From: Rhodopirellula sp. P2
GTDB taxonomy: Bacteria > Planctomycetota > Planctomycetia > Pirellulales > Pirellulaceae
DNA: 64,000 nucleotides
Assembly: GCF_028768465.1 (NCBI RefSeq)
Contig: NZ_CP118225.1
Coordinates: 620,001 to 684,000 of the forward strand
Reading direction: 5' to 3'
Shown here: positions 7,023-57,922 of the stretch, piece by piece
Position numbering within the stretch: position 1 is the first letter of the stretch
How the letters are laid out: the number at the start of each line of letters is the position of its first letter
Made by a program: the position numbers and the translations under genes
Notes under the pieces: generated by a model
Database searches by the model: none
What the model saw: the letters and a program-made list of their open reading frames with translations, nothing else
What the model was told of the DNA's origin: nothing

Positions 7023-7175
7023 ACGACCTGCCGTGTGAACTGAGAACGATCGGGCCGCTGCGTCACACACATCTCGAACTGGCATATCTTCCCCGCTTCA
7101 CCCAAGCCGCTTATCTTCTCCATTCGTCGTGTGGTGTCACACACAGCTTGCAGGCCCCCCAGAAAAGCAGTGACG

Positions 7176-10100: not shown

Positions 10101-13040
10101 ACCCTCGAAATTGTCGCGACGACGCTTTCCCGGGGCACACTGACGAACACCGCGGAAATCATTCAGGCCACACTTCCGGATCCCGACAGCACCCCGGGCA
10201 ACGGCCTCATCGACGAAGACGACCAAGCCGAAGCGAGTCTGCAAGCCGAACAAATCGATCTGGAGCTGTTCAAAACCGTCGACAATCTCACGCCACGCTT
10301 GGGCGAAACGATCCAGTACGAAATCGTCATCCGCAACGAGGGCTTGGACACCGCCACCGGAGTCATCGTCGAAGAAAACTTGCCAGCCGGTCTGACCTTC
10401 ATCGATGCCACACCGACAACGGGCAGTTTCAATTCGTCGAGCGGTCGCTGGACAGTCGGCGAGTTGGCCCCATCCGGCTCCGCCACGTTGACCATCAATG
10501 CTCGCGTCAACAACAACGTGACGGCCGACTCACCGACGATCACCAACCGCACCGAAGTCATTGCGGCGGGACAGATCGATTCGGACAGCACGCCTGACAA
10601 CAACGCCCCCGGCGAAGACGACCAAGCCAGCGTGACCGCCCGCGTCGAGTTCATCGATTTGTCACTGGAAAAGACCGTCGACAATCCAGCCCCCAATGTC
10701 GGCGACCGCGTTGCCTTCACGATCACGTTGACCAACGATGGTGAGACCGCCACCACGCGAGACACAGCGACCAACATCGTTGTCCGCGACTTGCTTCCCG
10801 CGGGAATGACTTACGAATCCAATTCGCTCAGCGACGGCACCTACGATCCCAACACGGGCGAGTGGACCGTCGACACATTGGCCGATGACGCCACCGCGAC
10901 ACTGACCCTGTTCGCGATCGTGGATCAAGTTGGAACGCAAACCAACACCGCCGAGGTCGCTTCGGTTGACCAAGACGACATCGATTCCACGCCGGACAAC
11001 AACGTCGCAGCCGAAGACGACCAAGCCAGCGTGAGCGTCACCACACCGGTCATCGATCTCTCGCTCACACAGACTGCTTCTCCCGAACGTCCCGCGATCA
11101 ACGGCGAAGTCACGTTCACACTGACGCTTCGTAACGATGGGCCCGACGATGCGACAGGAATCGTCGTTCGCGATTCGCTTCCCGATGGATACACCTTCAC
11201 CTCCTCTTCGCCTGCCGGTGCCTTCAACGCAGGGACAGAACTTTGGACCGTCGGCGATTTGGCGTCCGGCGAAGAAACAACGCTGGAACTGACGGGAACG
11301 ATCGGCGACGTGGAAACACTCGAGAACCGGGCCGAGGTGATCGCTGCCGACCAAGCCGACCGGGACAGTGTTCCTGACAGTGGACTGGATGACGGCGAAG
11401 ACGACACCGCCTCTGCGATTGTGACACTTGCGAGCGCCGACCTTTCACTGACCAAGACCGTCGACAATGCCTCGCCCAACTTTGGCGATGAGGTCACCTT
11501 CACAATCACTGTTCGCAACAGCGGTCCCGACCCAGCGACCGGAATTCGGGTCCGAGACTTTTTGCCCGCCGGCATGGACCTCACCGACCAAACCACATCC
11601 GATGGCAGCTACTCGGCAATCACCGAGATTTGGATGATCGATGAACTCGCATCAGGCCAAACCGCGACGCTGACATTGACGGCAAGCGTCAACTCCGAAT
11701 CGTCACTGACCAACGTGGCTGAGATCATGGCCAGCGACCAACGCGACCCAGACAGCACGCCGGGCAATGGTGACGCCGATCCAGCCGAAGACGACCGAGC
11801 CTCGGTGGACATCCAAGCACAACTGATCGATCTGGCGCTCAGCAAAACGGTCGACGGCACCCGTTTCGACTTGGACGATTCGGTCGAATTTGAATTGACC
11901 GTTTCCAACACGGGCCCGACGACAGCCACCAATGTCGAAGTCGCTGACTCCTTGCCCGCCGGACTGATTTTCGTCTCTTCATCGACCGCCAACGGAGGCT
12001 ACAACTCTCAGTCGGGCACTTGGACGATCCCCAGCATCCCCAGCAACGAATCGGTCACGCTGACACTCAACGCATCGGTCAATCGAGACGCGATCACCGA
12101 CGACATCCTTCGCGATGGCATCACCAACTTTGCGGAAGTCATCTCGGCCGACCAACCTGATCGCAACAGCGTGTTCGGAAACGGAGACGTCAACGAAGAC
12201 GATGCCGACTCCGCGATCCTGATGATTGCGCGTGCCGATCTTTCGTTGACCAAGTCCGTCGACATCTCCGCCCCCAATCGCGGCGATACGATTCAGTACT
12301 TGGTCACCATCACAAACGCCAACAACGATCCCGCGACCAACGTCGTGATCCGTGACCTGTTGCCAGGTTCACTGAATTTCCAGGATGCGACGCCAACCCA
12401 AGGCAACTTCGACGCCCTGACGGGTCTTTGGACGTTGACGCAGCTCGAACCCAACCAATCCGCGACCTTGCAAATCAACGCCATCGTCGAGCAGTCCGGA
12501 TCCGTGACGAATGTGGCCGAAATCATCCAGTCGGATCAAATCGACCCCGACAGCACGCCGGGCAATGCCAATGGTGATGAAGACGATCTCGCGTCGGTCC
12601 AAGTCACTCCTCAAGTCGTCGACATCAGCGTCACCGCTGCGGTGGACAACTTGGAACCCGAAGTCGATGACATCATCACGATCACCTTGACCGCCGCCAA
12701 TGCGGACGGTGTTTCGGATGCCACCGGCGTCGTCATCGAATCGTTGTTGCCCGATGGATTGACGTTGGTACCACCGGCCTCACCGCAGCAAGGCACTTAC
12801 GATCCCGCAACGGGTCAGTGGAACATCGGCCCCTTGGCGTCCGGTGCAAGCGTGCAGTTGGTCCTGACCGCACGCGTCGACACTCGCGGATTGAAAACCT
12901 TGAACGCCGAAGTCACGCAAACCGACCAGTTCGACGTCGACAGTGTGCCGGGCAATGGCGATCCCGACGAGGACGATCAAGTCGCACTTGAGATCCGAGC
13001 CCCACGTGTCCTATCCAAGCGGCTGTTTTTGTCTCGCTGA
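7176..13040 (+). CDS. Giant extracellular DUF11-repeat protein with LEPR-XLL-like N-terminal signal
   Basis: 1954 residues from ATG 7176; an upstream GTG at 7131 is in frame but less likely. After a very basic N-terminus comes LLLESLENRRLLAV, resembling the planctomycete LEPR-XLL export/sorting motif. Next is an SdrD-B-like domain (QGQVTDSFFGG..., Td-G-Y-F...G-Y pattern, residues about 45-120), then a region containing a jelly-roll-like segment. From about residue 355 there are 12 DUF11 domains of roughly 120 residues, each opening with a DLxLTKTV-type strand, containing xxDxLPAGL, and ending in an acidic linker of the D-DSTPxN-EDDQA type. The C-terminus ends SKRLFLSR. DUF11 arrays are stalk-like adhesive or envelope proteins. 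Its last 30 nt overlap the convergent PSP1 gene. Confidence 0.88.
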   Translation: MRFPSRKSRTDSRSTIGMRRGRRRLLLESLENRRLLAVASDLVTIQGQVTDSFFGGNFEDVALDLFRDDGDGVFEPDTDDVEVNMAMADPSGNYQFTGVTAGSYFVFQPAQTVNGRALQQQISPLVTVTSTQAAGQAFQTIDSFQTTQSVEDTVTDGTPVTSTQAAAEAIGGSRDLLVDKTQGGTGDIGTVAIGVNQAVSPNLLSFDANGFADGSRLVIWDGAGDDAATVDDDGLGAIDLTNGGSATGLRFVIGSVTSGTARIRLYSDDGIAGSRTLVSQATLTIPALPTQPTSVEYIPFSDFQTISGSGADLTQIGAIELEVSGGPDYDAIADLLGTVGPTILVQNIDNAGDADLELTKTLITTEPTLNQNVVFDVVVTNNGPDPATGIVVTDRIPAGIINTTGTTSTGAFAPDTGLWTIPSLAVGATATLRLTGQLDSLDPQTNVAEITAAEQRDADSPRDNNVLADDDQDAATVAATRVDLQLSKTVSDSQPNVGDEITFTLTLQNTSLDTATDATLSTATGILVEDRLPAGLTLIGNTPGAGTSFNTSTNRWSISSLDVGGLATLELVARVDQAGDFTNVAEVLAVAQTDRDSIPNNDLIDEDDQAEVTIQTPVADLSLTKTVSNETPTVGENVTFTITVDNEGPNNATGVQVQDRLPTGLTYISDVTSSGTYDPDTGLWDIGGVTAPNPGNPIPAMPTLQIIARVDSLGLKTNSATITASDQSDPDSTPGAGPSSEDDTDSAILTPNAIDLQLTKTVTPARPEPGDSITYTITLSNADSSAAIPITTATNIQVTDLLPTGLIFQEAQVTAGTHVDATGTWTVDSLAAGASETLTLTAILDPGRSDLFASITNTAEITQAAQFDPDSTPDNQDATEDDQASSVITPALADLSLTKTVDNTNADVGENVTFTITARHDSGDPSGQFIVLDTLPAGLQFVESTASIGNYDENTGRWTVPELDADSGTAAPSFATLEIVATTLSRGTLTNTAEIIQATLPDPDSTPGNGLIDEDDQAEASLQAEQIDLELFKTVDNLTPRLGETIQYEIVIRNEGLDTATGVIVEENLPAGLTFIDATPTTGSFNSSSGRWTVGELAPSGSATLTINARVNNNVTADSPTITNRTEVIAAGQIDSDSTPDNNAPGEDDQASVTARVEFIDLSLEKTVDNPAPNVGDRVAFTITLTNDGETATTRDTATNIVVRDLLPAGMTYESNSLSDGTYDPNTGEWTVDTLADDATATLTLFAIVDQVGTQTNTAEVASVDQDDIDSTPDNNVAAEDDQASVSVTTPVIDLSLTQTASPERPAINGEVTFTLTLRNDGPDDATGIVVRDSLPDGYTFTSSSPAGAFNAGTELWTVGDLASGEETTLELTGTIGDVETLENRAEVIAADQADRDSVPDSGLDDGEDDTASAIVTLASADLSLTKTVDNASPNFGDEVTFTITVRNSGPDPATGIRVRDFLPAGMDLTDQTTSDGSYSAITEIWMIDELASGQTATLTLTASVNSESSLTNVAEIMASDQRDPDSTPGNGDADPAEDDRASVDIQAQLIDLALSKTVDGTRFDLDDSVEFELTVSNTGPTTATNVEVADSLPAGLIFVSSSTANGGYNSQSGTWTIPSIPSNESVTLTLNASVNRDAITDDILRDGITNFAEVISADQPDRNSVFGNGDVNEDDADSAILMIARADLSLTKSVDISAPNRGDTIQYLVTITNANNDPATNVVIRDLLPGSLNFQDATPTQGNFDALTGLWTLTQLEPNQSATLQINAIVEQSGSVTNVAEIIQSDQIDPDSTPGNANGDEDDLASVQVTPQVVDISVTAAVDNLEPEVDDIITITLTAANADGVSDATGVVIESLLPDGLTLVPPASPQQGTYDPATGQWNIGPLASGASVQLVLTARVDTRGLKTLNAEVTQTDQFDVDSVPGNGDPDEDDQVALEIRAPRVLSKRLFLSR

Positions 13041-13636: not shown

Positions 13637-14932
13637 TTGAGTCACCGCCGCATTCTTCACGCCGCCGACATTCATCTGGACAGCCCCCTGCAGAAGCTTG
13701 ACGCCTACGAAGACGCTCCCGTCGACGAAATTCGCGAGGCATCCCGGCGAGCACTTGAGAACATGACCCAGTTGGCGATCGACGAACAAGTCGACCTGGT
13801 CGTCATCGCGGGAGACCTCTACGACGGCGATTGGCCCGACCAAAACACCGGCCTGTTCTTCGTCAAACAAGCCAGCCGGTTGGTTCAAGAAGGCATCCAC
13901 GTTGCGGTCATTCGAGGCAACCACGACGCCGCCAACAAAATGACGTCGAACCTGCCGCTACCAAAGAACCCTGACGGCTCCGATATTCTGCTCAGCGAAA
14001 AGAAAGTCGACCAACGAGTTCTCGAAGACCTCGGCATCGTGATCCACGGCCGATCCTATGCCAAACGGGCCGAAACCGGCGACATGGCCGCCGAATACCC
14101 CGCGCCGATCGGCGGCATGTTCAACCTCGGCATCCTGCACACCGGACTGTCAGGCCTGGACGGTCACGATCCGTACGCCCCCTGTTCCCCGCAGCAACTC
14201 GCCGACAAGGGTTACGACTACTGGGCCCTCGGCCACATTCACTTGCGCGGCGAGCACCAAATCGAAGGCACCGCCCCGGTTGTCTTCAGCGGCAACATTC
14301 AAGGCCGACACATTCGCGAATCGGGACCGAAGGGTTGCCTCCTCGTCGACCTGGACGCTCGCAACCAAACCGAGCGTCGGTTCATGCCTCTGGACGTCGT
14401 CCGATTTGAAACCTTTGATGCCAATGCAAGTCAATGGTCGCACACCGATGAATTGATGGACGCCTACGAAGCCTGGATGAACGACCAACTGGAACAGGCC
14501 GAGAATCGGTTGCTGGTCACCCGAGTCATCTTGTCCGGCCAATCATCGCTGCATCAGCAATGGATGCGTGAACAATCCAATTTGGAAGCGTCACTGCGAG
14601 CCACTTCGGTCACCCATGGCCACGGACAAGTCTGGTTGGAACGGTTGAAGATCAAAACCTCGGCCGAGGTCGATCACTCGCCCGCGGAACAACACGATGC
14701 GAATCAGGAAGGCCCGCTGCACAGCATTCTCTCAGTCGTGGAAGAACTGAAATCCGGCGGAGGCGACTCGGATTGGATGGCCAACGAGATCACACCTCTC
14801 CTGAAAAAACTACCAACTGAATTCAGTGGCGACCAAGCCCCGATTCGCTTCGACAATCCTGAAGAACGTCACGAATGGATCGAAGCGGCAACCACGGAAT
14901 TGCTCGCCCGACTGCAAGGAGGCAAACGATGA
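13637..14932 (+). CDS. SbcD/YhaO-type metallophosphoesterase (DNA repair nuclease)
   Basis: 431 residues. Calcineurin-like phosphoesterase motifs are in order: ILHAADIHLDSPL (DxH, residue about 10), VVIAGDLYDG (GDxxD, about 56), IRGNHDA (GNHD, about 95), ILHTG (about 167) and ALGHIHLR (GHxH, about 201). It therefore is a dinuclear-metal nuclease of the SbcD/Mre11/YhaO family. The start is TTG at 13637, right before the first motif, so no longer start is needed. The stop overlaps the ATG of the SbcC-like partner (ATGA), as expected for a nuclease/ATPase complex acting on DNA ends. Confidence 0.9.
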   Translation: MSHRRILHAADIHLDSPLQKLDAYEDAPVDEIREASRRALENMTQLAIDEQVDLVVIAGDLYDGDWPDQNTGLFFVKQASRLVQEGIHVAVIRGNHDAANKMTSNLPLPKNPDGSDILLSEKKVDQRVLEDLGIVIHGRSYAKRAETGDMAAEYPAPIGGMFNLGILHTGLSGLDGHDPYAPCSPQQLADKGYDYWALGHIHLRGEHQIEGTAPVVFSGNIQGRHIRESGPKGCLLVDLDARNQTERRFMPLDVVRFETFDANASQWSHTDELMDAYEAWMNDQLEQAENRLLVTRVILSGQSSLHQQWMREQSNLEASLRATSVTHGHGQVWLERLKIKTSAEVDHSPAEQHDANQEGPLHSILSVVEELKSGGGDSDWMANEITPLLKKLPTEFSGDQAPIRFDNPEERHEWIEAATTELLARLQGGKR

Positions 14933-17900
14933 TCATTGAACGCTTGGACCTGATCGCCTTTGGGCACATCACCAACCGCAGCCTCGACCTTTCGGCAGGC
15001 CCGAACCGATTCCATTTGGTGGTCGGTCCCAACGAATCCGGTAAATCGACCAGCCTGCGTGCCATCTCGTCTTGGTTGTTTGGCATGGCCACCCGCGCCG
15101 ACGATGCCTTCCTGCATCCCGCCGCGAAACTTCGCGTCGGAGGGCGCCTGACAACGCTGTCCAGCGATGGATCCGCCCCCGAGTGGGTCCTTGAGTGCAT
15201 CCGGCGTCGCGGTCGCAAAAACACCTTGCGTGGTGCCGATGACCAAGCCGAAATCGCCGAGTCCGAATTGGCTCAAATGCTGGGCGGCATCGATGAAGCC
15301 ACCTTCCGTTCACGCTTTGGTTTGTCGCACGAAGAATTGCTGCTCGGCGGTGAACAAATTTTGCGAGGCGAAGGCGAACTCGGCGAAATCCTGTTCTCGG
15401 CGGGTGCCGGCATCGGACGTCTGCGAGAGATCTATGAACAACTCGACTCCGAAGCCAGCGAACGCTTCAAACGAACCGGCAAAACACCCACGATCAACAA
15501 CAGCCTGCAACAACTCGACGAAATGCGTCGTCGACTGCGTGATGCACAAGTCCCGCCCGCTGAATTCGCGGACTTGCAAAAACAATTGGCCGAAAAAGAA
15601 GCCCTGATTCAAAGCTGGCAAGAAGAGTCCCAATCGCTTGTCCAACAAATGGGCCGCTTGCAATCGACCGAACAAGCCCTGCCATTGATCCCACGCTGGA
15701 AAGCGGCGACGCAAGAACTGGCCAGCGTGCAAGACGCCCCCATGCTGTCCGATGATTTCTCTGACCGCCGACGTGAATGGGAACAAGAACAGAAGTCGAC
15801 CACCCGCCTGCTGCAAAACCTGCAACAAAACCATGCTGAGCTCACTCAGCAACGGAAGCAACTCGGACACGACGAATCCATCGGACTTTTCGAGAGCGAA
15901 ATCCTGGCCCTGTATCGAGACCTCCCCAGCCGTGAAAAAGCCGAGGGTGAAAAGGAAACTTTGCAGCAAGCGTTGGCAAACCTTGAACAAGAGATGCGAT
16001 CGCAACTCCATGACCTCGCCTTCGGGGAAGCTCCGCTCCCAGCAGAGCACGAAACAACCGATGACGATCAGGATCCGCTGACTCAACAAGTTGACTCACT
16101 GCAAATCAGTGAATCGAAACGATCCAAGATCCAACGCTTGGCTGGCGAATACGAAAAGCTGGTCCAACAATGTGACGATGCCTCGGACCAACTCGACAAA
16201 GCCAAGCGTGAACTCACGATGGCCGAAGACGTGTTGGCAGAATCCAACGTGCCAACGCAGTATCAACTGCTCGACCGCACGCTCGAAGAAATGGGCGCCC
16301 CAGAGCGTTGGATTGAATCCGCGAGGCGAGAACAAACGCAAGTCGACAAACTCGCTCGCGAATGCCAAACGATCCATCGCCGATTGAAGTTGGAAACATC
16401 CAGCGACGATGCCGCAATTCAGTCCGCCGTCGAACTGTCACTGCCGACGCCGTCCCAATTGACCGAACGAACGCAAGCTCTCGATCGGGCTGGCAAAGAA
16501 GTCATGCTGGGCCAGCAACGAGCCCAGGAACTGCAACATGCTCTCGCCAACGCGGAAGAAAAGCTCGCCTCTCTGAAAGCTGACGCGGGAGATTTACCCA
16601 CGCCCGATGACCTTCGCGACGCCCGCCAGCATCGCGACGAGATCCTCGCTGGCATGAAGCAAAACGCGAGCTCGTTTTCCCCCGATCAATGGTCAGCGAA
16701 CCTCGCCGCAGCCGAACTGGCGATCCATCGGGCTGATTCCATCTCGGATATCTTCCAGTCGCAACACGAATCGATCTACCGACGGCAAGCCGCCCAGAAC
16801 AACTTGGATCAACTGCGGCGTCAGTCAACCGAGCACGACCTCGCGATCGCTGATGCTCAAGCTTCCCTGACGCAGGCCCAAGAAAACTGGCAATCCATTT
16901 GGCAAGCAGCCGGCATCCCAGCCAGCGATCCCGATGCGATGCGAACCTGGATGTCCGATCATCAAAAACTAATCGAGCAATTCGCGGAACTGCAAACCGC
17001 AATCGGCGAACGGGACCAGTCCCACGCTCAACTGCGGCAAGCCATTGCAAGGCTGCAACAAGCCCTGGAAATCCCCGAGTCTGACACCTCGTCCGAGGAT
17101 TCACTGGAACCAACCTGCACCACGCTTTCGCGTCTGCATGACTTGGCGTTGACCCAACGCGCCGAGCAGGCTCAACAACTCAAACTTCGCGAACAACGCG
17201 AGCACAAACGCAACGAATGCCGGACTGAAATCCCCGGGTTGGAATCCAATCTGCAGCGCCGGCAGAGTGCCTTGGACACCTGGAACCAACAGTGGGATGA
17301 ACTCACCGCGTCTCTTCAACTGAGCTCCAAACCCGCCCCGCAAGACGCCTTGTCAATGATGGACTCGATCACGCAATTGATCGGTCAGAAGAAACAACGG
17401 GACGACATCTCGCTTCGCATTGCAGCGATCCGCCAAGAATCCGAGACCTTTGTTCGGCGTGCCATTCGATTGCGAGATTCGTTGGCGGCGGAGGACGTTG
17501 AGTCGACCTCCCAGACTGATCCCGCAGGCGATACAGTCGGTTTGTCCGAACTCGCCGAGACCATCAATTTGGCACATGAACGCCTGCAACGCGAACAACG
17601 CGCCCGCAGCGCTCGGGACGAAGTTCAACAACAACTCCGCCAACGCGAACAGGAACTCGCGGACGCAAACGAGCAACTGGAACGACTCACGATCACGCAG
17701 CAACAACTCTGCGACGAAGCCCATTGCACTGCTCCTGAAGAACTGGGCGAAGTGGAAGCACGCAGCCGTCGCCGCGTGATTGCGGAATCCAAGGTCGCTG
17801 ACCTGCAAGCCCAACTGGATCACTGGGCGAGCGGGCAGGATCGCGAATCGTTCGTCGAATCCCTGCGGGACCAGCAGCCCGCCATGATCGCGGAAGAACT

Positions 17901-18711
17901 CAAACAGCTGACCGAGAAGAAACGCGAGCTGGACGAAAGACTCTCGGTGTCGCAAAAAGAACTTTGGAGCCTGACTGAAAAGCTGAAGGCCATCGATGGA
18001 AGCGGTGAGGCGTCCAAGCTCTCCCAACAAATGCAGTTCTCACTTGGGAAACTGCAACGGGAATCGGAAGAGTACATCCGTCTGCGATTGGCCGCGTCGA
18101 TCTTGCAACGCGCCATGGAACACTACCGCAACCAAAACCAAGAACCGGTGCTGCGTGAGGCAGAATCCTTTTTCGCGACGCTCACCTGCGACGAGTATCA
18201 GGCCTTGCGAGTGGACTACGGCGACAGCGACAAACCATCGCTGTTCGGCGTTCGAGATGGGATCGACGTGCCGGCCAATCGGATGAGCACCGGGACCGCG
18301 GACGCTCTGTATTTGGCGCTGCGTTTGGCGTCATTGAAACATCAATTGGCCCACGCCAGTGCGATCCCGCTGATCATTGACGATTGCTTGATCCAGCTCG
18401 ACGATCGCCGAGCTGCGGCGGCACTCAAGGTCTTCTCGGAACTTTCCACCACCACCCAAGTCATCTTGTTCACCCACCACGATCACTTGGTCGACTTGGC
18501 ATCCGAGACGCTTCCGGATGACGGATTTCACGTGCATCGCTTGGGTGAAACCAGCCCGCATGCGTCCAGTCCACCCGTCAAACAATCCACGTCCGCCCCA
18601 AAACCGAAGAAGAAATCGACTCGCAAGAAGACGGACCCCAAACCAACCCCCAAGAAGTCGGACGAAAGCCTTTCGCCGCCTGACACGCTCTTCGACGTCT
18701 TCTCGAATTGA
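14929..18711 (+). CDS. SbcC/YhaN-type SMC-like ATPase
   Basis: 1260 residues from ATG 14929, which overlaps the upstream stop. The Walker A GPNESGKST is at residues 33-41. A long Gln/Glu/Arg-rich coiled coil spans about 170-1060. The ABC-signature-like MSTGTADALYLALRLASL lies near 1117 and the Walker B IPLIIDDCLIQLD near 1142, followed by an H-loop region (ILFTHHDHLV). It lacks a clear CxxC zinc hook, which fits the YhaN branch rather than classical SbcC. The C-terminal 50 residues are an added Lys/Pro/Ser-rich tail ending TLFDVFSN. Partner of the preceding nuclease. Confidence 0.88.
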   Translation: MIIERLDLIAFGHITNRSLDLSAGPNRFHLVVGPNESGKSTSLRAISSWLFGMATRADDAFLHPAAKLRVGGRLTTLSSDGSAPEWVLECIRRRGRKNTLRGADDQAEIAESELAQMLGGIDEATFRSRFGLSHEELLLGGEQILRGEGELGEILFSAGAGIGRLREIYEQLDSEASERFKRTGKTPTINNSLQQLDEMRRRLRDAQVPPAEFADLQKQLAEKEALIQSWQEESQSLVQQMGRLQSTEQALPLIPRWKAATQELASVQDAPMLSDDFSDRRREWEQEQKSTTRLLQNLQQNHAELTQQRKQLGHDESIGLFESEILALYRDLPSREKAEGEKETLQQALANLEQEMRSQLHDLAFGEAPLPAEHETTDDDQDPLTQQVDSLQISESKRSKIQRLAGEYEKLVQQCDDASDQLDKAKRELTMAEDVLAESNVPTQYQLLDRTLEEMGAPERWIESARREQTQVDKLARECQTIHRRLKLETSSDDAAIQSAVELSLPTPSQLTERTQALDRAGKEVMLGQQRAQELQHALANAEEKLASLKADAGDLPTPDDLRDARQHRDEILAGMKQNASSFSPDQWSANLAAAELAIHRADSISDIFQSQHESIYRRQAAQNNLDQLRRQSTEHDLAIADAQASLTQAQENWQSIWQAAGIPASDPDAMRTWMSDHQKLIEQFAELQTAIGERDQSHAQLRQAIARLQQALEIPESDTSSEDSLEPTCTTLSRLHDLALTQRAEQAQQLKLREQREHKRNECRTEIPGLESNLQRRQSALDTWNQQWDELTASLQLSSKPAPQDALSMMDSITQLIGQKKQRDDISLRIAAIRQESETFVRRAIRLRDSLAAEDVESTSQTDPAGDTVGLSELAETINLAHERLQREQRARSARDEVQQQLRQREQELADANEQLERLTITQQQLCDEAHCTAPEELGEVEARSRRRVIAESKVADLQAQLDHWASGQDRESFVESLRDQQPAMIAEELKQLTEKKRELDERLSVSQKELWSLTEKLKAIDGSGEASKLSQQMQFSLGKLQRESEEYIRLRLAASILQRAMEHYRNQNQEPVLREAESFFATLTCDEYQALRVDYGDSDKPSLFGVRDGIDVPANRMSTGTADALYLALRLASLKHQLAHASAIPLIIDDCLIQLDDRRAAAALKVFSELSTTTQVILFTHHDHLVDLASETLPDDGFHVHRLGETSPHASSPPVKQSTSAPKPKKKSTRKKTDPKPTPKKSDESLSPPDTLFDVFSN

Positions 18712-50723: not shown

Positions 50724-51010
50724 GAAGGTTGACAGTTCGGTCCTACGGCGCTATCCTCCCGCCTTGGTTCCAAGCCTCCGTTCGTGGCTGTTCACCGAAG
50801 GTCCTCGCGACGCTGACTTGGTGGTGGTGTTTCGACCCGCCTCAATGTGGCTTCATCTGCGATGGTGAATGACGCTTACGATTCAATCTCAACCGTTTCT
50901 TTCGATTCGATCGCCGCATTGTCTTGACCGATGGCTCATCACTCGTAAGAGAGATTTGCCACGCGCGCATTCGAATCGCCCCACGATGCTAGCAAAGCGA
51001 CCGACATCCG

Positions 51011-54000
51011 ATGACTGTTGATCTGGACGCAATCGCCCAACGCGGGCGATGCGAGGTCTCGAGTTTACGCCTGGCCCTGCCACTGATTGAGCAAGGTTAC
51101 ACGCCTCCTTTCCTTTCGCGGTACCGCCGTGACGAGCTCGGCGACATCGACGAGGCCAGTCTTTGGAACCTCGCGCATGCCGTGCGAACCCAGAAAGTGC
51201 TGGACGAGTACCGAGCGGATCTGCAAGCCGCTTGGCAGCAGACCCCGTTGGTCGATCCTGCGATTGGCCGAGCCGTTGGCAATGCTCAGTCGAAAAGACT
51301 GCTCGATCGCCTGAGTCGCCGCGTCAAACTAGAATCCAGTGAATCAGCGGGTCTTGTGCAGCGTTTGGCGGTTCGTGCTCTGAACCCGCAAAAAGGCGAC
51401 GGCGAAGACCTGAAGAGCCTGGCGGAAGCCTTGGCCGCCGAGCCCATCGCAACAGCAACCGCGGCGGAAGACGAAGCCCCCGCGACGGACAGCACCCCAG
51501 CGGATGTTGACGGTGCGTTGGCAAAACTGGACGCGACCATCGCCAAGCGATTGATCGGCGACCCACGAATCATGGGCGCCGCGGTGCGTTGGCTTTCACG
51601 CAACGCGAAAATTCGCGTGATGGAAGTTCACGATCCTCACATTCAATCCGAAGCCGATTCATCGGATTCGCAGCCCAAAGATCAGAATTCCGAGGCCGCT
51701 GCAGAAGCACAGCCAGCCGCCGCTGCGGCGGAACCGGCTGTGGAAGCCCCGGCTGAGACCGCTGAAGCTGCTCCTGAGGCCGAAACGCCAGCCCCCGAAG
51801 CAACTGCCCCCGAGGCCGCGGCCTCCGAGGACGCAGCACCCGACGCGAGCAGCACAGTCGAAGCCAGCGCAGCCGAAGCCAGCAGCGAACAAGCTCCGCC
51901 GGCGGAAACCGCAGAGGCACCTGCTAGCGAGCAACCCGCTGCGGATTCGGACTCCACCGAAACCGAAGCGACCGCCACCACAGAACCTGTTGCTGCGGAA
52001 GCATCCACTGCGGATGCCACGGCTGCTGAACAGACGGAACCCGCTGGTTCTGAAGCGTCCGCTGATTCGGAAACGCCCGCCGGAACGGACAAACCCGCTG
52101 AGTCGGTGACCAAGACGGCTCCTGCAGCCAAGGCAGCGCCCGCGAAAGCGAAGCCCAAGAAGTCCAAGAAAATCTCCCCGCGTCAGCGTCGCCGCCGTTG
52201 GTTGGTCAGCACGCTGAAGCCGTTGGCTGGCAAGAGCATGCCTGCCAACAAGCTGAGCTCTTTCCAATTGGTCATGCTGGGCCGAGCCCTGCGAAGCCAA
52301 GTCGCTCAGTGTGCGTTTGATTACGACGCCGCAAAATTGGTCGCGGAACTGCAAAAGACCGCCGCCGGCTTCAACCGCCCCTTGGCGGATCGCTTGTCCG
52401 GGTTGGTGCTCGAAAACGAAGCGATCATTCGCGACGCCGCGGAAGCCGCGTGGTGGGATGAATTGCAAGAGCAGGCTTCTTCACGATTGGTCGCCATCGC
52501 CGCTGACAACTTGCACTCGCAAATCAATCGCGGCGGCGTCGAAGCCAAAGTGGTGATGTCGATCGATGCCGTTGGGCCTCGTACCGCTGCCACTTCGATC
52601 GTTTCTTCGGACGGTCGACTGCTGCACAGCGAAGACATCCCATGTCAGCTGTCTGCCGCCATGCGGACGCTGGCCGTGACCAAGATGGGCGAACTGATCC
52701 ATGCTCATCACGTCGATTTGATCGTGATCAGCAACGGTCCCGCCCGCCGGGCTTGCATGATCGCAGTTGGCGAACTGATCAAGCAATCCGCTGACAAATC
52801 AGTGCGTTGGACGCTCGCTGATCGCAGCGGTGCAGACGCCTATGCAGGTGGTCCTGCCGGCGATCAAGAGATGAAATCGACGCCACGTCGTTTCCGTGCG
52901 GCGGCGTGGATCGCGTTCTCGGCCATGCAACCAGCTCAGGCACTTGTCAAAGTGGACCCGCTGAAATTGCGACTCGGTTCGTTCCAACGCGAATTGTCGG
53001 ACGACGCCGTCTTGTCGGCACTGGAAGACGTGATGGTCAGCGGCGCAGCCCGCGGTGGCGTCGATGTCAACTCGACCGCAACGACTTGGATGCAGCGTCT
53101 GCCAGGCATCACGTCGGAAATCTCCCAAGCCATTGACGAACGTCGTCGTGAGAAGCTGATCGCTTCCCGCGAAGAGTTGGCGACCGCGATTGAGTGGCCT
53201 TCCGTTGTCAACTCTCGCCAGGCAATGCCATTCCTGCGAGTCTTTGCCAGTGAAGAAACACTCGATGGCACATTGATTCATCCCGACGACTATCCGCTCG
53301 CGAAAAAACTCGCGACGGCCCTGAACATCGAACTGCCTCCGGATCGGCCGCCAGCCTACGAACTGCCCGATTACAGCGAACCCGTTGTGGTCACCAGCAC
53401 CGAGGCCCCGGTGGAAACGGCCAGCGAAGCAGCTGCCAGCGAAGAAGCAGCTGCCAGCGAAGAAGCAGCTGCCAGCGAAGAAGCAGTTGCCAGTGAAGAA
53501 GTCGCTGCCAACGAAGAATCGGCCACTCCCGAAAACGCAGAGCCAGACGCTGCGGCCAGTGAAACCACCGCGGAGCTGTCAGCGGAATCCGCGACGGAAT
53601 CCTCCGACGCACCCGCTGCCCAGACGCCCGCATCGGACGACACCGCCAGCGAACAGCCTGCCGCCGAATCCAGTGCCGAGGAATCTGAAACACCTGCTTC
53701 AGAAGAATCCCCCGCATCGGAAGCTGCCGCTGATTCAGAAGCTGCTCCGAGCGATGGTGAGCCCACCGAGGGTGCCACCGAAGCCAAGGCGGAAGCAGAG
53801 GCTCCCGCCGCGCCGGAACCCGTGCGTCGCCCAATGCCCGAACGGGCCGCCGTCGACAAACTGATCAAAGAATGGCAAATCGGAAAGCGTCGTTCGCATC
53901 AACTGGTTCGCTGGTTGTGCGATCCGTTTGGAGAAGGTGCCTCCGAAGGTGAGTCACCCGCCGTGATGACGGCCATGCCATCGCTCGCTGAGCTCAAACC

Positions 54001-54874
54001 AGGTGACCAAGTCATCGGCGTGGTCGTTGGCGTGATGCCATTTGGTGTGTTCATTGAATTGTCACCCGACTGCAGCGGACTGATCCATGTGAGCCGGATC
54101 TCCGACAATTTCGTTGAGGATTTGCACGAAGCTGTTCAGGTTGGTGACGTCATCACCGCCTGGGTAACCGGAACCGATGCGAAGCGTCGCCGGGTTGCTT
54201 TGAGTGCGATCTCGCCTGAACGCGAAGCGGCTTTGGAAGCCCGTCGCCAGAACGATCGCGGTGGACGCGGTCGCGGCCCCGGCGGACGTGGTCAAGGCGG
54301 CCAAGGTGGTCGCGGACAACGCGGTGCCCAAGGCGCTCAGTCGGGTACCCAAGCGAGCGGACAGGGTGGCGGACAAGGTCAGCGATCTGAGTCGGCACCA
54401 CGCGGTCGAGGCACGCCGTCCGGCGGTTCAGGCCAAGGTGGTCAACGCGGCGGGCAAGCTCGTGGTGGCCAAGGCCAAGGCCGCGGTGCTCAGGGCGGAC
54501 GCGGCGGCAAGCCAGGCGGTCGTCCCGGTGGACGCGATGCAGGCAGAGGCGGACGCGGTCGCGGACCGAAGAAACCAGAAGTCTACGAAGTCATCGGCAA
54601 AGACCCTGAAAAGCCACAGATCAGCGATGCAATGGCCAAAGGCGATGAGCCCATGCGATCCTTCGGCGATCTGATGCAAATGTTCAGCAAGGAGAAAGGC
54701 CAAACGACTCCTCCAGCGGACAAGAAACCAGCTGCCAAGCCGCCTGCTGCGGAGCAACCAGTCGCCGAGAAGCCAGCGGAAGTGAAACCAGCCGAAACAC
54801 CTCCGACGGACCCACCGGCCGCACCCAAAGCAGAGGCACCCGCCTCACCATCCGCTCCTGAGGGAGACGAATGA
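51011..54874 (+). CDS. Tex-like S1 RNA-binding protein with low-complexity inserts and RG-rich tail
   Basis: 1287 residues against about 720-780 for ordinary Tex. The Tex N-terminal helical domain is at 1-150 (LIEQGYTPPFLSRYRRDELGDIDEASLWNL). An Ala/Glu/Pro/Ser insert (about 219-385) ends in a basic patch KPKKSKKISPRQRRRR. The Tex core resumes with a YqgF-like domain (VVMSIDAVGPRTAATSIVSSDG, LIVISNGPARRA; conserved Gly/Thr residues altered), then HhH (GVDVNSTATTWMQRLPGI) and HPDDYPLA. A second acidic insert (about 793-940) contains 6-residue repeats. An S1 domain follows at about 993-1066 (GDQVIGVVVGVMPFGVFIELSPDCSGLIHVSRI), then a Gly/Arg/Gln-rich stretch at about 1077-1190 and a Pro/Ala/Lys tail. 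Nucleic-acid binding is near certain; the role of the disordered parts is unknown. Confidence 0.85.
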   Translation: MTVDLDAIAQRGRCEVSSLRLALPLIEQGYTPPFLSRYRRDELGDIDEASLWNLAHAVRTQKVLDEYRADLQAAWQQTPLVDPAIGRAVGNAQSKRLLDRLSRRVKLESSESAGLVQRLAVRALNPQKGDGEDLKSLAEALAAEPIATATAAEDEAPATDSTPADVDGALAKLDATIAKRLIGDPRIMGAAVRWLSRNAKIRVMEVHDPHIQSEADSSDSQPKDQNSEAAAEAQPAAAAAEPAVEAPAETAEAAPEAETPAPEATAPEAAASEDAAPDASSTVEASAAEASSEQAPPAETAEAPASEQPAADSDSTETEATATTEPVAAEASTADATAAEQTEPAGSEASADSETPAGTDKPAESVTKTAPAAKAAPAKAKPKKSKKISPRQRRRRWLVSTLKPLAGKSMPANKLSSFQLVMLGRALRSQVAQCAFDYDAAKLVAELQKTAAGFNRPLADRLSGLVLENEAIIRDAAEAAWWDELQEQASSRLVAIAADNLHSQINRGGVEAKVVMSIDAVGPRTAATSIVSSDGRLLHSEDIPCQLSAAMRTLAVTKMGELIHAHHVDLIVISNGPARRACMIAVGELIKQSADKSVRWTLADRSGADAYAGGPAGDQEMKSTPRRFRAAAWIAFSAMQPAQALVKVDPLKLRLGSFQRELSDDAVLSALEDVMVSGAARGGVDVNSTATTWMQRLPGITSEISQAIDERRREKLIASREELATAIEWPSVVNSRQAMPFLRVFASEETLDGTLIHPDDYPLAKKLATALNIELPPDRPPAYELPDYSEPVVVTSTEAPVETASEAAASEEAAASEEAAASEEAVASEEVAANEESATPENAEPDAAASETTAELSAESATESSDAPAAQTPASDDTASEQPAAESSAEESETPASEESPASEAAADSEAAPSDGEPTEGATEAKAEAEAPAAPEPVRRPMPERAAVDKLIKEWQIGKRRSHQLVRWLCDPFGEGASEGESPAVMTAMPSLAELKPGDQVIGVVVGVMPFGVFIELSPDCSGLIHVSRISDNFVEDLHEAVQVGDVITAWVTGTDAKRRRVALSAISPEREAALEARRQNDRGGRGRGPGGRGQGGQGGRGQRGAQGAQSGTQASGQGGGQGQRSESAPRGRGTPSGGSGQGGQRGGQARGGQGQGRGAQGGRGGKPGGRPGGRDAGRGGRGRGPKKPEVYEVIGKDPEKPQISDAMAKGDEPMRSFGDLMQMFSKEKGQTTPPADKKPAAKPPAAEQPVAEKPAEVKPAETPPTDPPAAPKAEAPASPSAPEGDE
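53429..53518 (+). repeat. 18-bp tandem repeat inside the Tex-like gene
   Basis: Five copies of an 18-nt unit (GCAGCTGCCAGCGAAGAA); the first three are identical and the last two diverged. It encodes AASEEA-type hexapeptides. It keeps frame, so copy-number change would only lengthen or shorten the acidic insert. Confidence 0.9.
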
Positions 54875-55368
54875 GCGACGATTTTCAGTCTCGATTGGAA
54901 TCGGCCATCGCTCGCGGACGCCGCCGTGCGGAGCATGAAGCTTCGCAGGAACGGAAAAAGGAGATGTCAGAGGAGGACTTGAAGCGGCTTCACACGTCGT
55001 ATCGTTTGTCTCTGTCAGAACAAATTGAAGCGGCTGTGCGCCGCGTCGCAGATCACTTTCCCGGGTTTCGCTACGAATCGGTCTTTGGCGAAGAGGGGTG
55101 GGGAGCGGCGTGTTACCGCGACGATTTACGACTCGATGCCGGACGTCGTACGAACCTGTACAGCCGCTTGGAATTGGTCATTCGGCCCTACAGCGATTTA
55201 CGAGTGCTGGACTTGAAAGGCAAAGGCACGGTGATGAACCGTGAACTTTTCAATCGCACGCACTACGCCAAAATCGTGGACGTGGAATCAGAAGAATTCA
55301 GCCAATTGATCGACGCGTGGGCGATCGAGTACGCCGAAATGTATTCCGCGAAAAGCTCAACGTCTTGA
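54871..55368 (+). CDS. Hypothetical protein following the Tex-like gene
   Basis: 165 residues. The start ATG overlaps the previous stop (ATGA), so it is co-translated with the Tex-like protein. The N-terminal third is charged and helical (RLESAIARGRRRAEHEASQERKKEMSEEDLKRLHTSY); the rest is mixed alpha/beta with YESVFGEEGWGAACYRDD, RLELVIRPYSDLRVLDLKGKGTVMNRELFNRTHY. No signal peptide or membrane segment. No family is recognised. Coupling suggests a shared role in RNA metabolism, but that is inference only. Confidence 0.75.
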   Translation: MSDDFQSRLESAIARGRRRAEHEASQERKKEMSEEDLKRLHTSYRLSLSEQIEAAVRRVADHFPGFRYESVFGEEGWGAACYRDDLRLDAGRRTNLYSRLELVIRPYSDLRVLDLKGKGTVMNRELFNRTHYAKIVDVESEEFSQLIDAWAIEYAEMYSAKSSTS

Positions 55369-56908: not shown

Positions 56909-57222
56909 GTTCTTGTGATCTTGTTCCAGACGGACATCACAAACGACAGCGTGATTGCGATCATGAGTGGCGAGGTGAAGGTGAACATGATGAACATGAC
57001 TTGCGAGAGGCTGCCGGATTCGTCCTCGGGAGGCTGTGCACCAACCCAAATCGCGATGTCCGTTTGAACACTGGGAACTCGCGAAGCATAAAACAAACCC
57101 GCCAGGAAGAACGCACTGATTAGAACCAGCAGCAACGACACCGCGATGCTGACCTGTGGGCGAGGCGAATGGGAGGAAGCCGTTCTTGGTTCGGGTTGGG
57201 AGACGGAATCAGCTTCAGCCAT
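56905..57222 (-). CDS. Small two-helix membrane protein
   Basis: 105 residues from the ATG at 57222 (8-nt overlap with spoVG). A cytoplasmic Ser/Pro-rich stretch is followed by [22 protein letters not shown], a short loop ([23 protein letters not shown]) and [21 protein letters not shown]. No family is recognised. It is tightly coupled to spoVG and to the methyltransferase gene, which suggests conservation of the cluster, but its function cannot be inferred. Confidence 0.65.
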
Positions 57223-57922
57223 CGAAAATGCCAGACCCAAAATCATCGAACGGTTCCGAACTCGCTTGCGAGGAGCGATCCGGTTGGGCCCCTCCAGCAT
57301 CACGGTTGGGCGAGTTTGTCACAGTCGAACCGCGAGACCCACCGCCGCGACGATGCAGGTGAGGTTGTGGGATGCGTTGCTCGTCGCCTTGTTCGCCCCG
57401 AACGATCAAGGTGTCCGCATCATCCTCGATCGTGGGTCTGGTGACCGGATCGGTGCTGGAGGCTGGTTTGGATTCGTCCGTGGAGGAACTTGTGTAGTCC
57501 GCTTCGTCATAATCGCCAGCATCAAAATCGTCTTCGTAACGACTCCGGTATCCAGGCTGTTGTGATCGATCCAGTTCCGCTTCGAATTCTTCGATCACTG
57601 CCTGCTGAATCATTTCGCGGCATTCGCTGTTGATCGGGTGTGCGACATCCGCATACAGCTTTTGAGGCGAATTGGCGTTGTGGCCGCTCAGTTTGGCGCC
57701 GCAGTGATTGCAATAGGCTGCGCGCAGGTGATTCTTGGAACTGCATCTCCCACAGTGCCCCGTCAGTTTGCGACTGGGCATCGCAACGAAGGGACCGCTC
57801 GTTCCGTCGATGATTTTCAGATCACGAACGACAAACGATTGGTCAATGGTGATCGAGCAAAACGCCCGCAGACGGTCCTCCGAACCTTCCATCAGCTTGA
57901 TGCGAATCTCGGTAATTTCCAC
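57215..57922 (-). CDS. spoVG: SpoVG-family protein with inserted zinc ribbon
   Basis: 235 residues, against about 85-100 for typical SpoVG. The N-terminus ([53 protein letters not shown]) is unmistakable SpoVG. Where the SpoVG fold normally continues with a DxAHP element, an insert with CGRC and CNHC (a CxxC-x12-CxxC zinc ribbon, residues about 57-75) appears; [26 protein letters not shown] then completes the fold. The C-terminal 110 residues are acidic, Ser/Asp-rich and probably disordered. SpoVG binds nucleic acid in other bacteria. It follows ispE by 9 nt; ispE and spoVG also lie near each other in Bacillus. Confidence 0.92.

Follow-up and report, generated by a model that had tools for sequence, protein, structure and literature searches.

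A Tex-fold protein of Rhodopirellula sp. P2 with two acidic inserts, a divergent YqgF domain and an RG-rich tail

Introduction

The best match of the protein described here, in both sequence and fold, is the Tex protein PA5201 of Pseudomonas aeruginosa (3bzc, 3bzk and 2oce), which has the same order of Tex_N, helical linker, YqgF, HhH and S1. A binding preference of Tex for ssRNA, dsDNA, dsRNA and ssDNA, in that order, is reported in PMC13340108. According to PMC3985635, the third carboxylate is absent from the YqgF pocket of ordinary Tex to begin with, and the nuclease activity of Tex was uncorroborated as of that paper. Eukaryotic Spt6 is described in PMC3933485 as a Tex-like core with lineage-specific N- and C-terminal regions.

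The window analysed here is a stretch of 64,000 nucleotides (positions 620,001 to 684,000 of contig NZ_CP118225.1) from Rhodopirellula sp. P2, a marine bacterium. The open reading frame tex2 (51011..54874 of the window, + strand, ATG start, 1287 amino acids by translation) encodes a Tex-fold protein in which the YqgF domain is divergent, two acidic low-complexity inserts are present and the tail is RG-rich. Compared with PA5201, this long Tex adds the two inserts, the RG tail and a C-terminal peptide, and the pocket Glu is changed to Arg. It resembles Spt6 in carrying lineage-specific additions on a Tex-like core, with Spt6 ranking beneath Tex in fold; no SH2 match, which would point to the tSH2 of Spt6, was present among the six Pfam families found in the tex2 product. 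The disorder of the long Tex lies between the core domains and at the C-terminus, and since its placement differs from that in Spt6, the likeness is one of analogy and not of common ancestry of the added parts. No earlier description of the long Tex was found among the papers listed by searches of an open-licence library, and the long Tex of other Pirellulaceae and Pirellulales carries no separate family name in the libraries searched.

Results

Domain architecture

The features of the locus are as follows (window coordinates, strand, residues of the tex2 product, basis).

51011..51640, + strand: Tex_N helical region, residues 1-210 (Pfam, phmmer, AF2 helices)
51641..52129, + strand: acidic disordered insert 1, Ala/Glu/Ser/Pro, residues about 211-373 (composition, AF2 pLDDT)
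52130..52198, + strand: Lys/Arg patch closing insert 1, KAAPAKAKPKKSKKISPRQRRRR, residues 374-396 (read from the translation)
52175..53374, + strand: conserved Tex core of helical linker, YqgF and HhH, residues 389-788 (dN/dS, Foldseek)
52547..52915, + strand: YqgF-like RNase H-fold domain, residues 513-635 (Pfam)
53054..53335, + strand: HhH region, residues 682-775 (sub-cut-off Pfam and phmmer)
53375..53824, + strand: acidic disordered insert 2, residues 789-938 (composition; Pirellulaceae only)
53426-53518: 18-nt tandem array inside insert 2, 5.2 copies
53993..54205, + strand: S1 RNA-binding domain, residues 995-1065 (Pfam S1, 50.1 bits)
54236..54565, + strand: Gly/Arg/Gln-rich basic tail, residues 1076-1185 (composition)
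54614..54703, + strand: conserved C-terminal peptide, PQISDAMAKGDEPMRSFGDLMQMFSKEKGQ, residues 1202-1231 (candidate docking motif)
54704..54871, + strand: Pro/Ala/Lys low-complexity end, residues 1232-1287 (composition)
54871..55368, + strand: linked downstream gene, 165 aa, no assigned family (adjacency in long-Tex loci)

A sequence-only reading of this DNA had proposed a divergent but recognisable Tex architecture, and this was borne out by the Pfam domains and by the best PDB sequence match, Tex 3bzc, which was aligned by phmmer in three stretches (E 4.2e-48). The N-terminal region aligned to 3bzc (ranges 16-110 and 10-104), and the HhH stretch aligned unbroken up to residue 769 of the ORF and 585 of 3bzc. 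Tex_N (residues 7-68) scored 30.4 bits in the Pfam protein search, just below the cut-off of 32, and 35.9 bits, above that cut-off, in the genome search. Tex_YqgF reached 37.6 bits against a cut-off of 27; HHH_3 and HHH_9 both stayed below their Pfam cut-offs. Thus Tex_N, the YqgF-like RNase H-fold and HhH followed by S1 were all present. The pair of beta-1 Asp and beta-5 Glu was not retained, the Asp being kept and the Glu lost, which bears on the sub-type, since catalysis is not an established property of Tex. Nucleic-acid binding and transcription regulation are predicted for the long Tex.

Structure prediction, run on alignments of five sequences, gave a poor AF2 model of residues 1-1072 (mean pLDDT 43; 73-82 over residues 1-70, 22-31 over S1), from which only the Foldseek ranking was used. 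The ranking agreed with the fold proposal: Tex (2oce, 3bzk, 3bzc) came first and Spt6 next, with low TM-scores of 0.08-0.19. The order of YqgF strands and helices fitted in the model at low confidence.

Acidic inserts and basic tail

Low-hydrophobicity stretches were found at residues 135-171, 210-394 (insert 1; 185 aa, net charge -24), 799-941 (insert 2; 143 aa, net charge -36), 1064-1199 (136 aa; G 35, R 15, Q 12 %; net +16) and 1224-1287 (P 25, A 22, K 12 %). Their share of the tex2 product, 0.44, was the highest among 40 mechanically chosen ORFs of the window, followed by a SpoVG-domain protein with 0.43, and 29 of the 40 had none. Both inserts suggested earlier therefore exist, on this measure with 185 and about 143 residues against the proposed lengths of about 165 and 150, and the Gly/Arg/Gln stretch of over 100 residues with its Pro/Ala/Lys tail was recovered. 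Disorder was called from composition. The pLDDT of insert 1 was below 50 over residues 212-385; this is uninformative on disorder, because S1 is low as well in the poor model.

In amino acid identity to the nearest relative (G130), insert 1 reached 0.52 vs 0.98 for the core, and among four relatives the inserts (identity 0.33-0.62) conserved composition and place, not sequence. Passive spacers would behave likewise. Many positions of the Lys/Arg patch were unchanged across five relatives.

Insert 2 was acidic in all 45 members of the clade that contains the window Tex (window clade), and both inserts were present in 32/45 by the chosen threshold, so that absence of the inserts from all relatives, which had been named as grounds for refutation, was not the case. 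As independent genomes carry the long Tex, an assembly artefact is excluded. Neither insert occurred in canonical Tex (0/30; 28 from Pirellulaceae, 2 from other Pirellulales).

C-terminal peptide and downstream gene

The C-terminal peptide has the consensus PITDAMxxGKEPLRSFGDLxQF, and the tex2 peptide was the sole strong match in its own genome. It was found in 31/31 proteins of the window clade, in 31/33 long Tex from other Pirellulaceae (in the two misses the frame is cut by a contig end), in 18/18 other Pirellulales Tex and in 7/13 Tex of Planctomycetaceae. It was seen in none of 32 canonical Tex, two of them partial frames, and in none of 45 Tex of other classes.

The downstream gene starts within the end of tex2, its start codon and the tex2 stop forming an overlap of 4 nt. 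This gene adjoined the long Tex on the same strand at 27/31 window-clade loci and 18/33 other long-Tex loci (45/64), and dprA was found upstream in just 3/64, the window locus itself being counted among the 64 in both cases. The 165-aa protein had no Pfam match, and NCBIfam and Pfam searches of 34 members gave scattered weak matches only, in 1-2 of the 34. Its profile matched a single PDB entry, a putative nucleotidyltransferase (E 0.019). The AF2 model (five sequences, mean pLDDT 63.5) was closest by Foldseek to a region of Mediator Med17 (E 7.8e-4) and then to CapZ, hits too weak to use. No match to the gene was found in genus g24, where G023, G082, G125, G137 and G147 have the window-type Tex, and in Planctomycetaceae the gene sits apart from Tex; the partner is therefore not essential to the pairing. 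The peptide and this linked gene were both missed by the sequence-only reading. A promoter scan gave one sigma-70-like site, at 50729, which carries no weight because 0.6 sites were expected by chance.

YqgF pocket and selection

In all 45 window-clade Tex the pocket Glu was replaced by Arg (R605, 52823-52825), and the beta-1 Asp (D519) was kept. Two further pocket changes, Trp for Ser (W633) and Glu for Asp (E661), were likewise invariant (45/45 each). Residue 604, beside the replaced Glu, was acidic throughout (Asp in 42, Glu in 3), which leaves the loss of metal binding unproven. The pocket Glu was mostly intact in other long Tex, namely in 30/33 of Pirellulaceae and in 19/19 rows of other Pirellulales; L180 and L240 in the latter set are the same gene, both of which entered the residue counts (19 rows), L180 being left out of the peptide and gain-of-parts counts (18 rows). 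Judged from these alignments, the pocket novelty of the window clade is the Arg that has taken the position of the conserved Glu. The YqgF nuclease motifs are thus altered as had been proposed, and the alteration is less telling than was claimed, given the absent third carboxylate and the uncorroborated nuclease activity of ordinary Tex (PMC3985635). The earlier proposal as a whole held for the fold, the inserts, the RG tail, the pocket change and a second tex, and not for the weight given to the nuclease motifs.

For the nearest pair (G130), dN/dS was 0.014 in the core, 0.019 in S1, 0.023 in the peptide region and 0.275 in insert 2, and 0.031 for the canonical Tex of the same pair. Core values against three other relatives were 0.015-0.081, and those of the peptide region (residues 1186-1226) rose to 0.17 (L003) and 0.27 (L069). 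On these ratios the core is under strong purifying selection. At larger distance the core had 0.059 vs 0.061 for canonical Tex in one genome pair. A constraint on core and peptide stricter than on canonical Tex at every distance was dropped, being true for the nearest pair only.

Lineage and gain of parts

A second, ordinary tex was located by its YqgF match at G000:C1:4417797-4418171; its product has 711 aa counted from the first start codon, and the tex2 core is 25% identical to it. The long Tex was placed in the native Pirellulales lineage by FastTree (185 rows, omitting partial loci L001 and L002, canonical frames below 600 aa L014 and L028, and 16 of the 30 short-flank loci L037-L066). 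In an IQ-TREE C20 'quick' tree of a hand-picked subset of 71 rows, the window clade (13/13 sampled) was nested among the long Tex of Pirellulaceae, and the canonical copies were placed outside that group. Window clade and canonical copies as a single clade, a grouping picked with the first tree already known, were rejected by the AU test (p 0.0056), and with them the long Tex as a derived copy of the canonical Tex of the genome. As judged from the trees, the long Tex descends from the native Pirellulales Tex, and the ordinary copy is a member of a different Tex clade.

Window-type Tex was found in 53/149 genomes of the family, including all six sampled of the genus, with no internal stop in any of the 53 matches. 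A second, canonical-type match was present in 39 of these genomes (one, G139, a cut fragment) and missing in 14; these counts were read by eye from tables, and incomplete genomes can hide a copy. Because members of one clade share ancestry, its counts do not represent independent cases; several B frames are truncated at contig ends.

The other long Tex of Pirellulaceae and Pirellulales share the lineage, the peptide in all uncut frames and mostly a basic tail, and those of Pirellulaceae share the neighbour gene to the extent given above. They differ in the mostly intact pocket Glu and in shorter branches, and Pirellulales beyond the family are without insert 2. Acidic insert 2 occurred in 23/33 other Pirellulaceae long Tex, and both inserts in 18/33; in other Pirellulales, acidic insert 1 occurred in 12/18 and insert 2 in 0/18. 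In Planctomycetaceae, 8/13 Tex had no inserts and a basic tail of 50 aa or more. The features seem to have been gained one after another: the peptide in Planctomycetia, insert 1 in most Pirellulales, insert 2 in Pirellulaceae and the pocket change in this clade. The basic tail was dropped as a class mark, being present in 21/45 Tex of other classes. In the other classes of Planctomycetota, 9/45 Tex had an insert 1 at least 50 residues longer than canonical, and five combined a long insert 1 with a net charge of -5 or less. In a test of convergence, five of these forms and the window clade as one clade were not rejected (AU p 0.17); the missing peptide in the other classes speaks for a separate origin of their long Tex.

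Discussion

The charged flexible segments, the tail peptide, the companion gene and the replaced pocket residue together suggest that the protein is probably a nucleic-acid-binding adaptor. We proposed that a native-lineage Tex of Planctomycetia was rebuilt into a flexible, non-nuclease adaptor of this kind, a reading to which about an even chance is given. S1, HhH and the RG tail would hold RNA or DNA, and the part of YqgF would be only structural or one of protein binding. The acidic linkers flanking the YqgF-HhH core could let the nucleic-acid-binding ends part and could screen or tune binding, and the disordered segments may dock partners. The C-terminal peptide would dock RNA polymerase, the ribosome or an RNA-decay enzyme, and the 165-aa protein would often act in the same complex. 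The role is most likely the usual one of Tex, transcription- or RNA-associated regulation, exerted via multivalent tethering.

It is possible, at clearly less than an even chance, that the long Tex keeps an ordinary Tex function and is passively decorated, the inserts being neutral, slippage-born expansions in solvent-exposed linkers with no specific role. The 18-nt array in insert 2 and the fast change of insert sequence and length fit this reading, as do the 14 genomes without another Tex in the scan, where the long Tex may serve as the sole Tex. Passive decoration nevertheless leaves unexplained that insert 2 stays acidic and in place (45/45), that the peptide is retained (31/31), and that the pocket carries changes invariant within the clade under strong constraint. 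An unlikely alternative is a scaffold that, by analogy with RNase E in Proteobacteria, would assemble RNA-decay enzymes or form condensates. The open frames that contain the RNase E/G and RNase Y matches of the genome measure 534 and 529 aa, and the former could hardly accommodate a long scaffold tail, so such a post may be vacant, and the acidic and RG segments, S1 and the conserved peptide resemble the anatomy of a scaffold. However, the likeness to the C-terminal scaffold of RNase E (disordered charged segments in an RNA-binding neighbourhood) and to RNA-granule or condensate proteins is compositional only, the tex2 product has no RNase_E_G match in Pfam, unlike RNase E, and no RNA-decay gene was seen among the neighbours looked at.

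An active nuclease with a shifted pocket, in which the acidic residue beside the replaced Glu takes over and YqgF still cuts, would be consistent with the conservation of D519 and of the acidic residue 604 in 45/45; neighbours along a strand usually point in opposite directions, which argues against such a replacement. Together with the uncorroborated activity and the lacking third carboxylate of Tex (PMC3985635), this makes it very improbable. The long branch (1.53 in the 71-row IQ-TREE tree) and the weak family scores might suggest a decaying duplicate, a pseudogene or an assembly artefact; this was refuted by the low core dN/dS in all four comparisons, by the spread over 53 genomes with stop-free matches and by the conserved insert 2, and its probability is regarded as negligible.

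The adaptor reading can be extended, rather speculatively, within Pirellulaceae. After a second, ordinary Tex had become available, the native Tex may have been neofunctionalised into an Spt6-like multivalent adaptor, with the ancestral nuclease-fold pocket remade as a surface for binding (invariant Arg, Trp and Glu) and acidic linkers added inside the core; it and the 165-aa protein of Planctomycetia might form a module of two genes, and it might be anchored to a conserved machine by its C-terminal consensus peptide.

Many bacteria have Tex, and Spt6 has the same core, yet the molecular role of Tex is poorly settled. A Tex with a conserved putative docking peptide, acidic disorder, an RG tail and living intermediates would provide a natural series for the contribution of each part, and this series bears on whether Tex requires its RNase H-like pocket. 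The C-terminal peptide would be a ready bait for the partner of Tex in Planctomycetes.

Identity and domain layout of tex2

The window's long Tex, tex2 (ORF 51011-54874, + strand), encoded 1287 residues from an ATG start. The sequence-only reading had described its Tex architecture as recognisable but divergent; this was borne out by Pfam matches to S1 and to Tex_YqgF, the latter above its cut-off, and by the top match among solved structures, Pseudomonas aeruginosa Tex (E 4e-48). The alignment to that protein ran in three stretches (10-104, 480-769 and 979-1104), both acidic inserts lying outside them. The two acidic low-complexity inserts and the RG-rich C-terminal stretch with its Pro/Ala/Lys tail, claimed earlier, were likewise recovered when disordered segments were called by a simple hydrophobicity window.

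Features of tex2 (residues) and of the gene directly downstream (window positions)
7-68, Tex_N, Pfam 30.4 bits, slightly under the cut-off of 32
210-394, insert 1, net charge -24, hydrophobicity window
513-635, Tex_YqgF, Pfam 37.6 bits, above the cut-off
799-941, insert 2, net charge -36, hydrophobicity window
995-1065, S1, Pfam 50.1 bits
1064-1199, RG-rich tail, Gly 35, Arg 15 and Gln 12 percent, net charge +16, hydrophobicity window
1224-1287, Pro/Ala/Lys end, hydrophobicity window
HhH, Pfam matches below the cut-off
54871-55368, + strand, partner gene, start codon overlapping the tex2 stop (ATGA)

Insert 1 was closed by a strongly basic patch (residues 374-396). Insert 2 contained an 18-nt tandem array of 5.2 copies, which suggests that it grew by repeat expansion. 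The share of low-hydrophobicity residues was the highest in tex2 among 40 window ORFs (0.44; runner-up 0.43; zero in 29). The SpoVG-domain protein at 57215-57922 (- strand, 235 aa) had 102 such residues, the Pfam model covering 82 positions. Elsewhere in the window, 7131-13040 (+) encoded a 1969-aa protein with 12 DUF11 stretches and the Planctomycete extracellular motif (Pfam Planc_extracel), and 14875-18711 (+) a protein of 1278 aa that resembled SMC proteins and carried an AAA_27 domain.

The structure predicted from a five-sequence input was of low overall quality, with a mean pLDDT of 43; the inserts scored mostly 22-30, and the S1 region was likewise low. Despite the poor model, its Foldseek ranking clearly favoured the predicted Tex fold: three Tex entries came first, followed by a series of Spt6 entries, at TM-scores of only 0.08-0.19. 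Spt6, which ranked below Tex, has a Tex-like core whose flanks are described in an extract of PMC3933485 as found in eukaryotes only; according to an extract of PMC13289920, Spt6 profiles failed to pick up prokaryotic Tex.

Distribution and descent of the Tex copies

A second, ordinary tex, for which a genome search had been proposed, was found in the window's genome (7.29 Mb) as a Tex_N and Tex_YqgF match at ~4.418 Mb on the minus strand, 711 aa counted from the first start codon. Tex_YqgF matched in 131 of the 149 sampled Pirellulaceae genomes, and a search with the window's core found the window type in 53. By eye, the search tables of these 53 gave a canonical (ordinary) match as well in 39, one being a fragment, none in 14, and no other long Tex type. 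Among the genomes searched, the nearest relative by core identity was G130 (97%). Tex was present in 97/117 sampled genomes of the order Pirellulales; outside the family, most genomes with Tex had only one match, generally in a reading frame of at least 840 aa, which suggests that one long Tex is the usual state in Pirellulales.

For the tree, 185 Tex proteins were aligned and ordered columns used. In FastTree, the 45 window-clade rows clustered with long Tex from Pirellulaceae and the remaining Pirellulales; the canonical copies of Pirellulaceae clustered with Tex from other Planctomycetota classes. A 71-row IQ-TREE ("quick", site-mixture model) agreed, with support of 100 for the window clade and 99 (SH-aLRT) for the enclosing Pirellulaceae long group. 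A single group of window clade and canonical copies, picked for the AU test after the first tree was seen, was rejected (p 0.0056). The branch to the window clade was long (1.53), and attraction is therefore a concern; grouping the clade with five divergent long Tex from other classes was not rejected (p 0.17). Two independent characters help the placement with the Pirellulales long Tex: one is the C-terminal peptide, the other the adjacent gene.

The long, very divergent Tex of other Planctomycetota classes (L206-L224) often had Gly/Arg tails, and some had acidic inserts and altered pocket residues; they likely arose independently of the window clade. Two genomes with such a Tex, G175 and G200, had an ordinary-length copy alongside. 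Among the longest Tex seen here were those of two other Pirellulales (L233 of G478, 1661 aa; L234 of G532, 1485 aa), in which the insert-1 anchors lay as much as 737 residues apart.

Distribution and probable gain of the inserts and tail

Lengths were measured between fixed alignment anchors, and acidic or basic calls made by threshold. Canonical Tex (n=30) had medians of 47 and 75 residues at the insert sites and a tail of 7. Planctomycetaceae Tex were without inserts, and their tail, with a median of 82 residues and net +14, was mostly basic (8/13 by threshold). The basic tail was not limited to this class, as 21/45 Tex of other classes had one too. In other Pirellulales Tex, insert 1 had a median of 211 between anchors and was acidic in 12/18; insert 2 was absent by anchor measurement (0/18). 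In other Pirellulaceae long Tex, insert 2 reached a median of 180 (23/33 by threshold), with both inserts in 18/33. The suspicion that the inserts might be missing from all relatives, as in an artefact, did not hold: acidic insert 2 occurred in 45/45 window-clade Tex and both inserts in 32/45, insert 1 falling below threshold in some partly because the basic patch offsets its charge. The median tail was also longest there (226). This distribution of parts points to a probable order of gain, with insert 1 (Pirellulales) before insert 2 (Pirellulaceae).

The YqgF pocket

In Tex, an acidic residue has been relocated from strand 4 to strand 5 and the third carboxylate is missing, and nuclease activity was uncorroborated as of PMC3985635, according to an extract of that paper; positions 335 and 421 of the P. 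aeruginosa 3bzc chain are presumably the carboxylates meant in the extract. The strand-1 Asp (D519, position 335 by alignment) was shared by 45/45 window-clade rows, whereas Glu 421 was Arg in all 45. This Glu was kept in 30/30 canonical, 13/13 Planctomycetaceae, 19/19 other Pirellulales, 30/33 other Pirellulaceae long and 37/45 other-class rows. Ser to Trp at residue 633 and Asp to Glu at residue 661 were also found in 45/45, which upheld the earlier claim of altered YqgF-like motifs. In the comparison with the nearest relative, core dN/dS was 0.014, as opposed to 0.031 for the canonical copies of that genome pair; with G141 the values were 0.059 (core) and 0.061 (canonical). Since the new residues are invariant and the constraint strong, the changes suggest that the site has found a new use rather than decayed. 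The residue preceding the Arg was acidic in every row (Asp in 42, Glu in 3), and a pocket shifted onto this neighbour is therefore conceivable.

C-terminal peptide and partner gene

A peptide with the consensus PITDAMxxGKEPLRSFGDLxQF and invariant G, P, F and L lay after the RG tail and ahead of the Pro/Ala/Lys end. It occurred in 31/31 window-clade Tex, 31/33 other Pirellulaceae long Tex (the two misses being frames cut by contig ends), 18/18 other Pirellulales and 7/13 Planctomycetaceae Tex, and was absent from canonical (0/32) and other-class Tex (0/45). The window's own genome held no other good match (next best E 1.84). In the region that includes it (residues 1186-1226), dN/dS was low against both of the closest relatives (0.023 and 0.027) and higher against two more distant ones (0.17 and 0.27). 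A brief conserved segment inside a disordered tail often marks a docking site, which makes the peptide a candidate for one.

In 27/31 window-clade loci, a relative of the 165-aa partner followed Tex on the same strand at a distance of no more than 239 nt, and in 18 of the 27 it overlapped Tex by 1 or 4 nt (start codons were assigned mechanically, hence a few longer overlaps). One also followed in 18/33 other long-Tex loci, four of the 33 having too little contig to judge. Gene order around Tex was otherwise generally unconserved, since dprA stood upstream in just 3 of the same 64 loci, the window counted. The partner was single-copy in 126/149 family genomes (in G041 a 25-residue partial match) and present in 23/294 phylum genomes, 21 from the same class and two weak. 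It matched no Pfam family, and across 34 members Pfam and NCBIfam gave weak entries only, in one or two; R45, W77, R83, S98-R99, E101, W150 and E156 were invariant in the 34 aligned. In five genomes of genus g3 (G002, G069, G102, G121 and G135; completeness 89-99), Tex_YqgF and the partner were both apparently absent.

In 10/14 Planctomycetaceae loci the partner adjoined one particular gene, which we take to be KDPG-aldolase-like. Tex, where present in those genomes, sat elsewhere, and three had the partner without any Tex_YqgF match; no partner copy was found in genus g24, which kept the window-type Tex. These observations count against a tight functional bond with Tex.

Proposed role

Among the papers listed by searches of an open-licence library, none dealt with the tex2 protein or with Tex in Planctomycetes. 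A degradosome-scaffold role would be slightly favoured by the shortness of the genome's RNase E/G (534-aa frame) and RNase Y (529). Tex binds ssRNA > dsDNA > dsRNA > ssDNA (Johnson 2008, as given in an extract of PMC13340108). With lineage, parts, constraint and linkage of tex2 demonstrated at the sequence level, we proposed that its protein may be a nucleic-acid-gripping adaptor. S1, HhH and the RG tail would hold nucleic acid, carried on long acidic tethers that could bind the basic tail in competition with nucleic acid and thereby adjust binding, while the YqgF domain would be used as a binding fold and the C-terminal peptide would dock a partner.
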